Position numbers and translations under genes: made by a program. Below are positions 14,030 through 19,331 of a DNA stretch of 64,000 nucleotides, one piece after another. Under the pieces are notes generated by a model. The model saw nothing but the letters and a program-made list of their open reading frames with translations, had not been told where the DNA came from and searched no databases. This DNA comes from an uncultured Candidatus Nitrosopumilus sp. (GTDB lineage: Archaea > Thermoproteota > Nitrososphaeria > Nitrososphaerales > Nitrosopumilaceae), in assembly GCA_951812655.1 (NCBI GenBank), contig OX638319.1, positions 124,001 to 188,000 of the forward strand, read 5' to 3'. Within the stretch, counting starts at the first letter, position 1. Each line of letters opens with the position of its first letter.

Positions 14030-14662
14030 GTGCAACTGACTGGTATTCTTCAGATAAGATCCCCTGAAAAAATTAAAGAATTTCTTAACGATGAGCATGT
14101 TGGACGGATATCTAGCATAGATGCAGATGGATTTCCTCAAATCATACCCATGAATTTTGTGTTTATCGACAATGCAATTTACATGCATTCCCATGTGCGT
14201 GGTGAGAAATTGGATAACATCTTGCGAAACAACAGGGTGGGGTTTGAGGCAGATAGGGAGCTGGAATTTTTACCCTCATATTTTGAAGATCCTCATAATG
14301 CTTCTTTGGCTGATACTTTGTATGTTAGTGTGGTGATCAAGGGGTTTGCATATCTTGTATCTGATAGGGAAGAAAAAACACTTGCCCTAAATGGATTAAT
14401 GAAAAAATATCAGCCTGAAGGACGATATGATCCAATGAGATCTGACATGCGAGTTTTGGATGCTGTTAGTGTGATCAAAATTACTCCTAACACGCTTCAT
14501 GGGAAATACAAAATTGGACAGCATATGAAGCCTGAAAATAGGATGAGTTTGGCACAAAAAATACTCAAGAAAAATTCTCCTACATCGTCTAAAACTTTGA
14601 AAATTATGGGGTTCGAAATCATTGATAACGAATTAGAGATGATCGATGAACCTATTTGGTAA
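14030..14662 (+). CDS. Pyridoxamine 5'-phosphate oxidase-like FMN/F420-binding protein
   Basis: About 210 aa with a split-barrel flavin-binding domain: PEKIKEFLNDEHVGRISSID, GFPQIIPMNFVF, YMHSHVRGEKLDNI, then VVIKGFAYLVSD. A TATA box (TTTATAAT, 14001-14008) lies 26-27 nt before GTG 14030, so a leaderless GTG start is chosen over ATG 14018, which would lie too close to the box. Likely a reductase/oxidase of unknown substrate. Confidence 0.75.
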   Translation: MQLTGILQIRSPEKIKEFLNDEHVGRISSIDADGFPQIIPMNFVFIDNAIYMHSHVRGEKLDNILRNNRVGFEADRELEFLPSYFEDPHNASLADTLYVSVVIKGFAYLVSDREEKTLALNGLMKKYQPEGRYDPMRSDMRVLDAVSVIKITPNTLHGKYKIGQHMKPENRMSLAQKILKKNSPTSSKTLKIMGFEIIDNELEMIDEPIW

Positions 14663-14723
14663 CTTTCCATAAAGTCTTATTTTAATGAATTAATTAATTA
14701 ATCATAACGCTTAATTAACTGAT

Positions 14724-14921
14724 ATGAATAATAATCCTATGACTGAGAGAATCAAATGTCCTAACTGTGGAGATGAATTGAAATTTCAAGCAGATCGATC
14801 AAATCCAATAGAAATCGCTGTTAATGTGTTCAATGTTGTTAGACTCAATACGATATTTCAGAGAACAAAACAAATGATGATGTGTGGTAGTTGTGGCTAC
14901 AGTTCAAAGTCTTCGATTTAA
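14724..14921 (+). CDS. Zinc-ribbon protein, 65 aa
   Basis: CPNCGDEL near residue 11 and CGSCGYSS near 54 form a zinc ribbon, with a hydrophobic helix between them (IAVNVFNVVRLNTIF). Start ATG 14724 or 14739. An AATTAATTAAT block about 27 nt upstream may be the TATA box. Function unknown. Confidence 0.6.
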   Translation: MNNNPMTERIKCPNCGDELKFQADRSNPIEIAVNVFNVVRLNTIFQRTKQMMMCGSCGYSSKSSI

Positions 14922-15290
14922 AAAAATTCTGATTAAGTAAAGCATTTGAATTCAGAAAAAAAAATTCCAACATGTGCCAAATGGAATATTTTCACTAGTT
15001 TTGACTATGTTGGATGATGTTGTGCTTTGAATTTTCTTTGAAAGTAATTTTTTCTGTTAAATTCATTTTTCATAATTATCATAAATATTGATTCAGGTAA
15101 TATTTTAAAGAAATTTCTCTCTCATACTTCTTTGCTTTGTTCTTATATTTTTTAATAATGATAACTTGTTTGAGTTGATTGTATTTTTTTCATGTCTTAT
15201 TGAGATGAATCAAATCTTATTTAATGATGTTAAATAATTATGTATTTTTGTTTATTAAACAAAACATATAATTATGAGTTTATATTAATT
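14922..15290. other. AT-rich intergenic stretch
   Basis: Very AT-rich; only ORFs of under 10 codons. A CATATAAT box at 15265-15272 is placed 22-28 nt before the start of the following HTH gene and is the only element supported. Confidence 0.5.
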
Positions 15291-15578
15291 ATGTTTATGA
15301 TTCTTAGTCCTAATGAGCGTCTAATTTTGATTTCTCTCTGCCATTCTCCTAAATTCGCTGGCGACATAGCTGAAGACTTGAACAAACTAGATCCTGCAAT
15401 AGCTACAAACCTTAGAAAAATGCAAGATGCAAAATTAATCTTTCATAAGAGGACAGGCGTACATAAAAAATATGCTGCTACCTCGTTTGGAAATTCTATG
15501 TATAAACTACTTTCATTACATGATTTAGCTTTTCAGGATCTTATTGACGAGTATAACAAAACACGTGATGTGGAATGA
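15291..15578 (+). CDS. Winged-helix (MarR/ArsR-like) DNA-binding regulator
   Basis: About 95 aa, one wHTH: SPNERLILISLCHSP (helix 1), FAGDIAEDLNKLDPAIATNL (helices 2-3, recognition), then a beta wing around LIFHKRTGVHKKYAATSFG. ATG 15291 or 15297 suits the TATA box at 15265-15272. The stop overlaps the next ATG as ATGA, so it is translationally coupled to the SRPBCC-membrane-TPR gene and may control it. Confidence 0.75.
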   Translation: MFMILSPNERLILISLCHSPKFAGDIAEDLNKLDPAIATNLRKMQDAKLIFHKRTGVHKKYAATSFGNSMYKLLSLHDLAFQDLIDEYNKTRDVE

Positions 15579-17125
15579 TTGTCTATTTAGACAAATTTGA
15601 AGTTGTAGCATCCACTGCTGAGCAAGTTTTTCAGGATTTGATGAATCCTTTCAAATATTCGGCATTTTTTGATAACACCTTCCTAAGCGTTCCCGGCAAT
15701 GAGGTGATTCCTGAGCATTATGAATTCGTAGCCACCGTCAAGGAGCATAACAAAAACGACTTCATCCTGGGCACCATCGACACTGTCCTGCCAGACGAGT
15801 CATTTAAACAATTAAACTTCGAATGGAGGTTTGAGGAACTGGGCAACAATCGGACCCAAGTGTCATACAGAATTTATGATGATGACAAAACTCCGCTGTC
15901 CGAACATTCACGTTATTGGAACAACAAGACAAAGGTATTGATCACCACGTCTACTGTAGGCTTTGGGACCATTGTCGCCAGCAATACGACAGTGATAATG
16001 TCTACAGCATCCGCCAGTGGCATAATATTCTCCAAGCCTGCGATTGCTGCAATCATGATAACCGTCGCAGCAATTAGTGCAGGAGGACTGATCAACGACG
16101 ATGCGTTCTTGTCAGATCCTCGTGTCGAATACTCCCTGTATCCCAGCCAGCTTCCCGCAGAATTGCACGGGACAGAATTGACGCTGAATGGAATTCTTGC
16201 CGATGACGGAAGCCCCATATCGATGTATGAATGCGATCATGAGCCGATAATACGTGGACTGGATTACTCCTTCGACTGCGTGGTAAAGAACTCACTCGGG
16301 ATAGAGCAGACGGTGACGACCGTAGTGCAGATAAGAGAACCCATAAGATTTCTTAACAATGCTGCGATGGACTGTGTGTCACGATATGACGCGCTACCTG
16401 CTGACGTGACATATGAGTTTCCATACCTGCAAAATCTTCCCGAATTGAGTCCAAGCAGACTAGTCAATCTCAAGAACCAGCATGTGAAGACGATGGATGA
16501 CAGTTTTGATGACAAGGATTATGCAAATGCAAAGAAGCATGCAACGATACTGCTCAAGTACTTCAACGGCAACGACATCCAGACACTGTCCACCATGGGA
16601 AACATCATCAGAGATGAGGATAGACAGAATCATGATAATGTTTCATGTGCAATGGCAATTCACAGTAATCCGTTTATAGCCAACACTTCATGGGGTACGC
16701 TGTCGCTTGCCGATGACAATCACGTATTGGGTAAGTTTGAAACCGCATCCAAATTGGCATCGTTGATAATTGATCGGTACGAATCTGGTGACATCACCAT
16801 CGAGGAAGTCTCGTACAAGAACGCGTCAATCGTAAAGGCAAATGCGCTGTTCCGGATCGTAATGGCAGCAACGGACCCAGATATTGATGATATAGGACGG
16901 CAATACGCCAAGGAAGTGGAAGAGATAAGATATCAATACATGAAGGCTCATGACATAGAGCCATCATATGATTCGTGGTTTGGCCTGGGCAACCTGGATA
17001 GATACGTGGGAGACTTTGATGATGCGTTAGAGAAATACAAAGAGGCCAAAAAGATGGCAAGGGATACGACAGAGATAGATCATGAGATGGGCGTGTTGCT
17101 TTCATATGATGAGTTTAATCAATGA
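15575..17125 (+). CDS. SRPBCC domain fused to membrane segments and TPR-like region
   Basis: 516 aa in one frame. Residues 1-115 look like an SRPBCC/polyketide-cyclase fold (EVVASTAEQVFQDLMNP, LNFEWRFEELGNNRTQVSY). Residues about 128-178 are two hydrophobic segments (TTVIMSTASASGIIF, AIAAIMITVAAISAGGLI). A beta-rich stretch follows with Cys residues, and residues about 320-510 resemble TPR/SEL helices (WFGLGNLDRYVGDFDDALEKYKEAKK). By eye the base composition becomes richer in GC after the first 100 nt. Coupled to the wHTH gene by an ATGA overlap. Function unknown; the architecture suggests ligand binding on one side of the membrane and protein contacts on the other. Confidence 0.7.
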   Translation: MIVYLDKFEVVASTAEQVFQDLMNPFKYSAFFDNTFLSVPGNEVIPEHYEFVATVKEHNKNDFILGTIDTVLPDESFKQLNFEWRFEELGNNRTQVSYRIYDDDKTPLSEHSRYWNNKTKVLITTSTVGFGTIVASNTTVIMSTASASGIIFSKPAIAAIMITVAAISAGGLINDDAFLSDPRVEYSLYPSQLPAELHGTELTLNGILADDGSPISMYECDHEPIIRGLDYSFDCVVKNSLGIEQTVTTVVQIREPIRFLNNAAMDCVSRYDALPADVTYEFPYLQNLPELSPSRLVNLKNQHVKTMDDSFDDKDYANAKKHATILLKYFNGNDIQTLSTMGNIIRDEDRQNHDNVSCAMAIHSNPFIANTSWGTLSLADDNHVLGKFETASKLASLIIDRYESGDITIEEVSYKNASIVKANALFRIVMAATDPDIDDIGRQYAKEVEEIRYQYMKAHDIEPSYDSWFGLGNLDRYVGDFDDALEKYKEAKKMARDTTEIDHEMGVLLSYDEFNQ

Positions 17126-17387
17126 CAATTGGATGGAATACGTGAACAGAACCAAATTAAATCTCTACAAATAATTTGAAATATTCTGTTGTATTTTGAA
17201 TACTTTCTAACATTTGTGTTCAAAATACGTTTAATCATATACTGCGATGTGTTTCTTTATTTTACGATTCTGCTGTATTTTCATATTCTATCTGACGTGT
17301 TGGTTTGAAACTGTCCTGACTTTTAGCTTCGATGCTGCAAACGTTAGCTATAAGTTCAGTTTTCAAGGATTGTGTTTGTTGAAACAA

Positions 17388-19331
17388 ATGTCTAAGTTTG
17401 AATTGGCTTCAGATTATGCGCCAACTGGTGATCAACCACAAGCTATAGATGCTTTGGTCGACGGTGTGCTGAAAGGCTCAGTACAAACTCTTCTTGGGGT
17501 CACTGGTAGTGGAAAAACATTCTCTGTGGCTAACGTGATTGCAAGAACTGGAAAAAACACCCTCGTAATTTCACATAACAAAACTCTTGCAGCTCAGCTA
17601 TATTCTGAACTAAAGCAGTTCTTTCCAAAAAACAACGTGGGTTATTTTGTTTCATATTATGACTATTACCAACCTGAAAGCTATCTTCCTCAGACTGATA
17701 CCTATATAGAAAAAGACACTCAAATCAATGAAAAAATTGAAAAATTAAGGCTAGAGGCAACAGCCATGCTGCTATCTGGTGAACCGACAATCATCGTGTC
17801 TACAGTATCATGCATCTATTCGCTGGGAAATCCGCAAGATTGGAAAGACTCCGCAGTTCCCATCAAAACAGGCGAGGAGGTAAAACGTGACGAAATTATT
17901 CGAAAATTAATTGATGCTAGATATGAGCGAAACGATACTGAAGTGGCCCCTGGTAATTTTAGGGTTAAGGGAGATACCATTGACATCACTCCTGCATATT
18001 CTGAAGACATAGTACGGATATCGATGTTTGGAGATGAGATAGAAAAGATTGCTTTACTTGATCACGTGTCTCTAAAAGAAAAAAAAAGAATTCCACAAAT
18101 GGTGGTTTTTCCTGCAAAGCATTACCTTATAGCTAAAGATGTCAGCAAGAAAGCCGTAAAGTCAATACGTTCAGAATTGAAAAATCATTTGCCAAAGCTC
18201 AACGAACTTGAAAAACAGCGTCTGGAAATGAGGACAAGGTATGATCTGGAAATGATTGAGGAGCTTGGTTATTGTTCGGGGATAGAAAATTATTCGAGGC
18301 ACTTCGATGGCAGAAACCCCGGTGATAAGGCATTTTGTCTGATGGATTTTTTTGGAGATGACTATCTTTTAGTCATCGATGAATCCCATGTCACACTGCC
18401 TCAGTTACATGGAATGTACAAAGGAGATTATTCTAGAAAAGACAAGCTTGTGACATATGGTTTTAGATTGCCTAGCGCATATGATAATCGACCCTTGAAA
18501 TTCGAAGAATTTGAAGAATATATTCAAAACACTGTTTTTGTTTCTGCAACGCCTTCTGAATATGAGAAAAAAACATCCCTGAAGATAGTAGAGCAGCTAG
18601 TCAGGCCCACGGGGCTGCTTGATCCTCAAATTGAGATAAGGCCATCCAAGGATCAGATGGATGATCTAATTGTAGAAATTCAGAAAAGATCTGCAAATTC
18701 TGAGCGTGTTCTTGTCACTACCCTTACCAAACGCATGGCCGAAGATTTGGCAGAATATCTCTCAAAAAAACAAGTTAGGGTCAGATACATGCATTCCGAA
18801 ATTGAGGGGTTGCAAAGGACCGAAATTATCAGGCAGCTGCGACTAGGGGAATTTGATGTTTTGGTAGGCATCAATCTTCTCAGGGAGGGCCTGGACATAC
18901 CTGAGGTCTCATTGGTTGCGATTTTGGATGCTGACAAGGAGGGATTTCTGAGAAATTTCACAAGCCTGATCCAAACATGTGGTCGTGCTGCAAGAAATTC
19001 AAATGGGACCGTAATCATGTATGCTGATCAAACCACTCAATCGATGAAAAACACGATTAATGAAACAAAGCGTCGTAGAGAAAAACAAATCCAATACAAT
19101 AAGGAAAACGGAATTGTTCCCAGGACTATCATAAAGTCTGTTCCGGAACAAGAAACTTCTTTAGATGATTCAAAACTAAAATCAACGTATGATCTCAACT
19201 CAGAGATTATTGAACTGGATGCGCAAATGAAAAAATACTCTGAGGATCTTGATTTTGAACGTGCTATTGAATGCAGAGACAGGATAAAACGTATAGAAAA
19301 GGAGATTAAATTCAAAAATGCCCGAAAATAA
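17388..19331 (+). CDS. uvrB: Excinuclease ABC subunit B
   Basis: Damage-verifying helicase-like subunit of bacterial-type nucleotide excision repair. 647 aa. Walker A GVTGSGKTF near 38-46, YYDYYQPESYLPQTDTYIEK (beta-hairpin region) near 91-110, DESHVT motif near 330, helicase C-domain, and C-terminal UVR helix for UvrC/UvrA (ECRDRIKRIEKE). ATG 17388 starts the conserved SKFELASDY; TTG 17379 is also possible, since a CTATAA box lies 28 nt before it. Overlaps uvrA by 14 nt. Confidence 0.96.
   Translation: MSKFELASDYAPTGDQPQAIDALVDGVLKGSVQTLLGVTGSGKTFSVANVIARTGKNTLVISHNKTLAAQLYSELKQFFPKNNVGYFVSYYDYYQPESYLPQTDTYIEKDTQINEKIEKLRLEATAMLLSGEPTIIVSTVSCIYSLGNPQDWKDSAVPIKTGEEVKRDEIIRKLIDARYERNDTEVAPGNFRVKGDTIDITPAYSEDIVRISMFGDEIEKIALLDHVSLKEKKRIPQMVVFPAKHYLIAKDVSKKAVKSIRSELKNHLPKLNELEKQRLEMRTRYDLEMIEELGYCSGIENYSRHFDGRNPGDKAFCLMDFFGDDYLLVIDESHVTLPQLHGMYKGDYSRKDKLVTYGFRLPSAYDNRPLKFEEFEEYIQNTVFVSATPSEYEKKTSLKIVEQLVRPTGLLDPQIEIRPSKDQMDDLIVEIQKRSANSERVLVTTLTKRMAEDLAEYLSKKQVRVRYMHSEIEGLQRTEIIRQLRLGEFDVLVGINLLREGLDIPEVSLVAILDADKEGFLRNFTSLIQTCGRAARNSNGTVIMYADQTTQSMKNTINETKRRREKQIQYNKENGIVPRTIIKSVPEQETSLDDSKLKSTYDLNSEIIELDAQMKKYSEDLDFERAIECRDRIKRIEKEIKFKNARK

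Follow-up and report, generated by a model that had tools for sequence, protein, structure and literature searches.

An overlapping gene pair for an ArsR-type regulator and an SRPBCC-membrane-TPR protein in a Candidatus Nitrosopumilus genome: a rare module and possible membrane-controlled switch

In Bacillus subtilis, SdpI holds the autorepressor SdpR at the membrane, and in the available part of that report (PMC1626106) the small autorepressor and the membrane protein are encoded together in one operon of two genes, an arrangement which the gene pair described here probably shares. SdpI is described there as polytopic; the partner in our locus instead has SRPBCC and TPR parts, and the SdpI family was absent from the four Pfam matches of this 516-aa protein (listed up to E 10). 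The SdpR autorepressor model (NF033789) was the best NCBIfam match of our regulator (E 4.3e-6), at 26.5 bits and thus below the cut-off of 100. A further likeness, drawn by description, is to CadC and the co-component system VtrA/VtrC, in which, in the available part of the source (PMC9214523), the output of a helix-turn-helix domain is linked via a membrane helix to an outer domain, and in which the VtrA/VtrC genes partly overlap, as do those of our pair.

The window, the whole stretch of 64,000 nt that was analysed, corresponds to positions 124001-188000 of a single-contig genome of 1,672,661 bases. It contains, on the plus strand, a gene for a 95-aa ArsR-type winged-helix regulator (15291-15578, from ORF, Pfam and NCBIfam scans) followed by a gene for a 516-aa SRPBCC-membrane-beta-TPR protein (15575-17125, from ORF and Pfam scans and structure models). 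The two overlap by 4 nt (ATGA, 15575-15578), the second start codon lying inside the first stop codon, and both frames are intact over 611 codons; they are flanked by a gene ending at 14662 and by uvrB (start taken as 17388). The overlapping regulator/multi-part protein pair proposed in the initial annotation is thus present as a pair of open reading frames. Literature searches on Nitrosopumilus with regulator/TPR/transmembrane or SRPBCC/TPR/HTH terms returned no such pair among the titles listed, which leaves its absence from print unproven.

Assignment of the 95-aa protein to winged-helix regulators, as annotated initially, was upheld by Pfam, since it scored, narrowly, above the cut-off of HTH_5 (ArsR) (23.2 vs 22 bits). 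The corresponding regulator of a second split pair, found in Nitrosopumilus genome G036, is 48% identical to it over 83 residues and also passed HTH_5 (31.2 bits). At the subfamily level, the cut-off of the metalloregulator model (NF033788) was missed by the window regulator (22.8 vs 55 bits), and the G036 homologue scored 39.9 bits with this model and 35.6 bits with the SdpR model. For the homologue, the metalloregulator model was therefore first and SdpR second among the NCBIfam matches, both under cut-off, and this better match to the metalloregulators is counted against the switch reading given below.

The 516-aa protein had been annotated as having an SRPBCC-like domain, hydrophobic segments and a TPR-like part, and structure prediction recovered both folds, the SRPBCC fold in a model of low confidence. 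About residues 1-110 (15575-15928, plus strand) make up the N-terminal domain, for which the SRPBCC fold is probable, judged from modelling and profile comparison. The Pfam cut-off of an SRPBCC member family was missed (Polyketide_cyc, 18.0 vs 23.4 bits, E 0.0035). A separate model of residues 1-175, built from three sequences (mean pLDDT 52, low confidence, with the core mostly at 60-80), shows the order beta-alpha-alpha-beta(4) in its core. Among the PDB chains with names that it matched, many are of the Bet v 1, Aha1, cyclase or CoxG type; the match lists also contain structural-genomics proteins without names, and SciW, which we take to belong to a different family. With this model the best Foldseek match had E 1.4e-3, none being under 0.001, and Z of at least 8 was reached by 11 of the 1000 chains compared, including 1) an unnamed protein with the best value (Z 8.9, rmsd 2.8, 90 residues), 2) a polyketide cyclase (Z 8.6, rmsd 3.3, 84 residues), and 3) a CoxG-family protein (Z 8.2, rmsd 3.6, 100 residues). 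By hhalign, the domain aligned co-linearly with eight AHSA1-type SRPBCC domains (E 5.7e-5, probability 66%); a negative control with an unrelated alignment gave E 0.57. In the SRPBCC/START superfamily a long C-terminal helix closes the cavity; residues 106-175 are under 50 pLDDT in the low-confidence model, and this helix is not seen there. The domain may simply hold the regulator without binding a ligand.

Behind this domain, one strong hydrophobic, presumably membrane-spanning segment was located at residues 144-175 (16004-16099), preceded by a weaker stretch peaking at 1.29 (residues 133-151), in agreement with the hydrophobic segments noted initially. The threshold for such stretches was set by ourselves at 1.4, and the first stretch exceeds it in P0003, an intact fused relative described below, and in P0006. 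The main segment has Lys/Arg ahead of it and Asp/Glu behind it. A beta-rich stretch follows at about residues 181-258 (16115-16348), modelled with low confidence, with two cysteines conserved in all four sequences that cover it in the codon alignment; two further cysteines are conserved in all four and all five sequences covering those positions. The stretch looks Ig-like by eye only, since the full-length AlphaFold2 model (eight sequences, mean pLDDT 59) is poor between residues 106 and 258. In the same model, residues 262-515 (16358-17122) form a helical superhelix, much of it with pLDDT 75-91, which matched the TPR structure 2pl2 with Z 17.6 (rmsd 2.1, 180 residues), the chance level for helical-repeat matches being about Z 13-14. 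Although Pfam TPR was sub-threshold (20.8 vs 27 bits), the modelled TPR part is therefore clear at the fold level as a superhelix of stacked helix hairpins. Charge and cysteines favour a location of the TPR part outside the cell, which is the weakest step of the mechanism proposed here; the weaker hydrophobic stretch, if membrane-spanning, would return the TPR part to the cytoplasm and is counted against the switch reading.

Comparison with related genomes indicated that the pair lies in an inserted or replaced block, with approximate ends at 14667 and 17335, for which no similarity to most of the relatives compared was detected. The block was absent from all 15 other Nitrosopumilus loci in which both neighbours could be located: there, 63-647 bp separate the upstream gene from uvrB, vs 2728 bp here by the same measure; three loci outside the genus without the upstream neighbour were left out of this count, and uvrB was unmatched in 12 of 31 genomes. 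When six intergenic regions were compared, similarity ended on the left at 14666 in four, 14695 in one and 14582 in one, and restarted on the right at 17336-17337 in five and 17347 in one. Mobile-element ends were sought in 14600-17420, and short imperfect repeats were all that was seen. From these comparisons, it seems that the block was gained by the window genome; such a gain, in line with the transfer suspected in the initial annotation, is supported by the empty site in 15/15 loci. The shift in base composition that had led to this suspicion is also real, with GC 0.347 and GC3 0.271 in the regulator gene vs GC 0.449 and GC3 0.509 in the 516-aa gene. Measured against a reference set of 42 window ORFs without mutual overlap, each 150 aa or longer and with the 516-aa gene not excluded (mean GC3 0.415, sd 0.056), the regulator gene is the greater outlier at about -2.6 sd (with 96 codons only), the 516-aa gene lying at about +1.7 sd.

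Relatives of the C-terminal module are rare. Single-protein searches found it in 6 of 95 genomes of the genus and 3 of 200 of the family, and a profile search at E 1e-5 in 7 of 250 of the family, namely six of the genus, the window's own included, and G133 of another genus. At the class level, 8 of 400 sampled genomes matched the module profile at E 1e-3; three of these matches (G043, G082 and G311, covering 49 to 68 positions with E of about 3e-4 to 5e-4) are probably generic TPR and were set aside as such, G043 and G082 missing the E 1e-5 limit of the family count and G311 lying outside the family. Profiles of the SRPBCC domain and of the regulator (E 1e-6) matched 2 and 3 of the 95 genus genomes, respectively, the third regulator match belonging to an ArsR-AHSA1 pair. 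The single-protein search of genome-contig and viral-contig collections gave no relatives, and an alignment search of the same collections gave three Nitrosopumilus loci, none viral.

The split form, with a separate regulator and an SRPBCC-membrane-beta-TPR protein, is shared by the window and one more genome, G036 (locus L013), where the genes again overlap by 4 nt. With both folds recovered and the pair present in a relative, neither of the outcomes that the initial annotation named as refuting was obtained. A fused form, also foreseen in the initial annotation, was found as one intact and one broken relative with the winged helix ahead of the membrane-TPR module: P0003 of G068, a 492-aa protein with winged helix, membrane, beta and TPR parts, in which the winged helix gave sub-threshold scores only, and a second G036 locus (L012) with the same order in broken frames, the pieces of which are 42% identical to P0003 over 48 residues in the winged helix and 31% over 105 in the linker-membrane part. 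Both fused relatives are without an SRPBCC domain. In three further relatives (G070 at a contig edge, and the fragments of G073 and G030), the N-terminus lies outside the available sequence. Frame breaks or stops were present in both long G036 copies, G073 and G133, for which assembly error is a possible cause; because several relatives (G036, G073, G133) are broken, selection on the family may be weak. Between the fused-type and split-type copies of G036, the TPR part is 80-82% identical and the beta stretch 46%, and this difference suggests that the ends of the module have been exchanged by recombination. The window protein compared with L012 gave dN 0.228 and dS 4.07, a value at which dS is unreliable, with protein identity kept and synonymous sites saturated. 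It was also noticed that a short SRPBCC-only fragment, perhaps a remnant of another copy, lies convergent to the G036 split pair (L013, 7011-7322), and that genes for a BrxHI-like helicase and a Cas4-like nuclease lie a few kb from it (L013, 11669-15629).

Viral and defence associations were also considered. The intact fused member in G068 adjoins a gene whose 1260-aa product has tail-fibre-like matches and a run of small genes (L015, 1127-8310), a region that could possibly be a provirus edge, with PHROG matches in the large gene only. The winged helix of P0003 matched a PHROG transcription-regulator family (E 2.8e-4). Viral cargo was rejected, its support being limited to this match and to the tail-fibre/virion-like gene; six other neighbours of the G068 copy had no PHROG match at E 0.001, P0002 was unmatched in phages and P0003 in plasmids. 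An anti-phage system was likewise rejected, as P0001, P0002 and P0003 gave no PADLOC match at E 0.001.

The pairing of an ArsR-type regulator with an SRPBCC protein has many parallels in Nitrososphaeria. The SRPBCC protein of one such operon (L058, in G068), which passes Pfam AHSA1 (71.1 bits), found matches in 57 of 300 class genomes, some of them to its hydrophobic tail only. Among the 25 best-scoring loci fetched, with frames read from stop to stop, 22 resemble the window in having an ArsR-type frame immediately ahead of the SRPBCC frame, on the same strand; the exceptions were L062 and L080, with no ArsR frame in range, and L081, with the ArsR frame on the opposite strand. ArsR plus SRPBCC is therefore an ordinary operon of the class. 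In 23 of the 25 the SRPBCC frame is 149-175 aa, too short for the TPR module of the window protein, and 20 or more of those stand beside an ArsR gene. In L058 and L059, both from Nitrosopumilus, the SRPBCC domain is followed by two or three hydrophobic stretches, so that the window family is not alone in having an SRPBCC partner anchored in the membrane. The combination of domains had been thought unfamiliar, and this holds for the membrane-TPR tail but not for the pairing itself: the window pair is a rare form of the ArsR-SRPBCC operon carrying a membrane-TPR tail. The window and L058 regulators gave no pairwise BLAST alignment, so descent of either pair from the other is without sequence support, a point counted against the switch reading. 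Elsewhere in the class, L076 (1426-2847) has, behind an ArsR-type frame, an open frame of 474 aa in which one SRPBCC-like match is full and two are partial, and the hydrophobic tail of the L058 protein (P0010, residues 135-248) matches short frames in many Nitrososphaeria genomes, including two in the window's genome, outside the window.

Careful examination of the region upstream of the regulator gene revealed a candidate operator built on the 8-bp palindrome ATAATTAT, which is repeated with a 17-bp phase upstream of both split pairs, a feature that the initial annotation leaves unmentioned. In the window, exact copies lie at 15234-15241 (site 1) and 15268-15275 (site 2), 34 bp (2 x 17) apart, and TTAATTAT, with one mismatch, lies 17 bp further at 15285-15292 (site 3), overlapping the start codon at 15291; one phase slot is thus empty among the three sites and there is no exact 17-bp pair, and another exact copy, at 15072, does not fit the phase. 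Site 2 would occupy the place of the TATA box of a leaderless mRNA. The G036 regulator gene is preceded by five exact copies at exact 17-bp steps, plus one out of phase. In a local test, the upstream stretch of 205 bp was put through 5000 dinucleotide shuffles; the window's three phased sites (up to one mismatch) were matched in a fraction 0.0004 of them and the five of G036 in none, and 17 was alone among periods of 10 to 30 in exceeding one phased site for the window and two for G036. These tests were designed after the sites had been seen and their probabilities serve as guides.

Searched with up to one mismatch, the two-site pattern occurs at a single place in the window genome, upstream of the 95-aa regulator gene, and in G036 as four exact matches that overlap one another at the homologous gene; of six comparison genomes, five had a single place, in each case with one mismatch, and the sixth had none, and a reversed-pattern control had one place in 2 of the 8 genomes. 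The exact pattern, for which the window genome itself has no match, occurred in 2 of 95 genus genomes (1 of 95 for the reversed control), at the regulator gene in G036 and at one place in G018 (L093, C1:71167-71191), the sole exact phased pair outside G036. This near-uniqueness across genomes is better support for the candidate operator than the shuffle probabilities. The restriction of phased palindromes to two loci is counted against the switch reading, as are the empty slot, the out-of-phase copies and the hits of the reversed control. Upstream of the two fused genes and the two ArsR-AHSA1 pairs examined, no exact ATAATTAT was found, which is counted in favour; one-mismatch copies were present once at L012 and twice, 16 bp apart, at L059, the latter again a point against. 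The ArsR genes of L059 (in G036) and L058 share instead an AT-rich upstream block, AATTAAATAACTCTTTAA, perhaps an operator of their own, and an inverted repeat GGGTTA...TAACCC, which may serve the fused winged helix as its operator, lies in L015 about 70-90 bp before the fused gene, a minus-strand gene (repeat upstream of 9956).

By analogy with SdpI/SdpR, we propose, with a confidence slightly better than even, that the two genes form an autoregulatory switch under control from the membrane. The ArsR-type protein would bind the phased ATAATTAT palindromes, which cover its own presumed promoter and its start codon, and would thereby keep the operon at a low level, and the 516-aa partner would be made from the same mRNA by translational coupling, as the gene overlap suggests. 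In the membrane, the partner would expose its SRPBCC domain to the cytoplasm and, most likely, the cysteine-containing beta stretch and the TPR superhelix to the outside; upon meeting of a ligand by the outer part, the SRPBCC domain would capture or release the repressor and transcription of the operon would change. That the fused relatives join the winged helix directly to the membrane-TPR module argues for a physical cooperation of regulator and module, and since no second phased site occurs in the genome at up to one mismatch, the switch probably controls mainly itself. A bolder version, which we think distinctly unlikely as it stands, is an archaeal counterpart of SdpR/SdpI in which an extracellular TPR receptor recognises a protein or peptide from outside, be its source a neighbour, a virus or the archaeon's own cells, and pulls the autorepressor off its phased operator; the receptor module would have been passed between lineages, with exchangeable repressor ends, either a fused winged helix or an SRPBCC domain plus separate ArsR protein.

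The topology on which the proposed switch depends can be drawn differently. If the two hydrophobic stretches, both evident in P0003 and the first of them weak in the window protein, formed a hairpin, the TPR part would be a cytoplasmic scaffold binding a cytoplasmic protein, and an internal or membrane state would be sensed; Foldseek also matched the TPR domain of LapB, which is cytoplasmic. We regard this as possible if doubtful, given that the first stretch of the window protein stays below the 1.4 threshold, acidic residues follow the main segment, and the four conserved cysteines would suit extracellular disulphides. The sensor, too, could be the SRPBCC domain itself, which would bind a lipid or a small hydrophobic ligand at the inner side of the membrane and relay this to the regulator, the TPR part doing no more than anchoring or localising the protein. 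Some of the matched fold entries are complexes with a ligand (deoxycholate in Bet v 1, abscisic acid in PYL3), and ArsR-AHSA1 pairs whose partner is a short frame of 149-175 aa are common; the closing helix is nevertheless not seen in the model, and the fused relatives lack the domain itself, and we consider the proposal unlikely.

Rarity and patchiness (7/250), the broken copies in G036, G073 and G133 and the empty site in all 15 relatives would also fit decaying mobile cargo, in which case the pair would be an inserted fragment without a present role and the palindromes leftovers. This seems quite improbable to us, as the frames of the window pair are intact, protein identity to L012 has been kept at saturated synonymous sites (with the dS reservation given above), and a candidate operator reaching the start codon has been kept in two genomes.

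We consider the gene pair a real, rare and mechanistically suggestive module. To our knowledge, the relay of outside signals to transcription in ammonia-oxidising archaea is poorly known, and the family offers a compact case open to test: a single regulator, a single membrane partner and a single predicted operator, occurring both split and fused. A role for the many ArsR-SRPBCC operons of the class is suggested as well, in which SRPBCC would be the domain that partners the regulator.

Among the described systems, the transmembrane transcription regulators (ArnR/ArnR1, PMC6396743; survey PMC10269533), as far as the available parts of these sources go, resemble P0003, whose single chain contains both a winged helix and a hydrophobic segment; P0003 missed the cut-off of the ArnR model NF041016 (16.5 vs 400 bits), and no match to it was listed for the window proteins. 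ArnR is described, in the part of PMC6396743 available, with a HAMP-like and a sensory domain and without a TPR part. The window regulator differs from this group in being a separate protein, so that DNA-binding domain and membrane segment are split, and it differs likewise from CadC and VtrA/VtrC, where, according to the available part of PMC9214523, the DNA-binding protein is itself anchored in the membrane. Taken with the likeness to SdpR/SdpI and to the ArsR-SRPBCC operons of the class, the pair looks like a variant of membrane-controlled transcription switches rather than a new kind of system.
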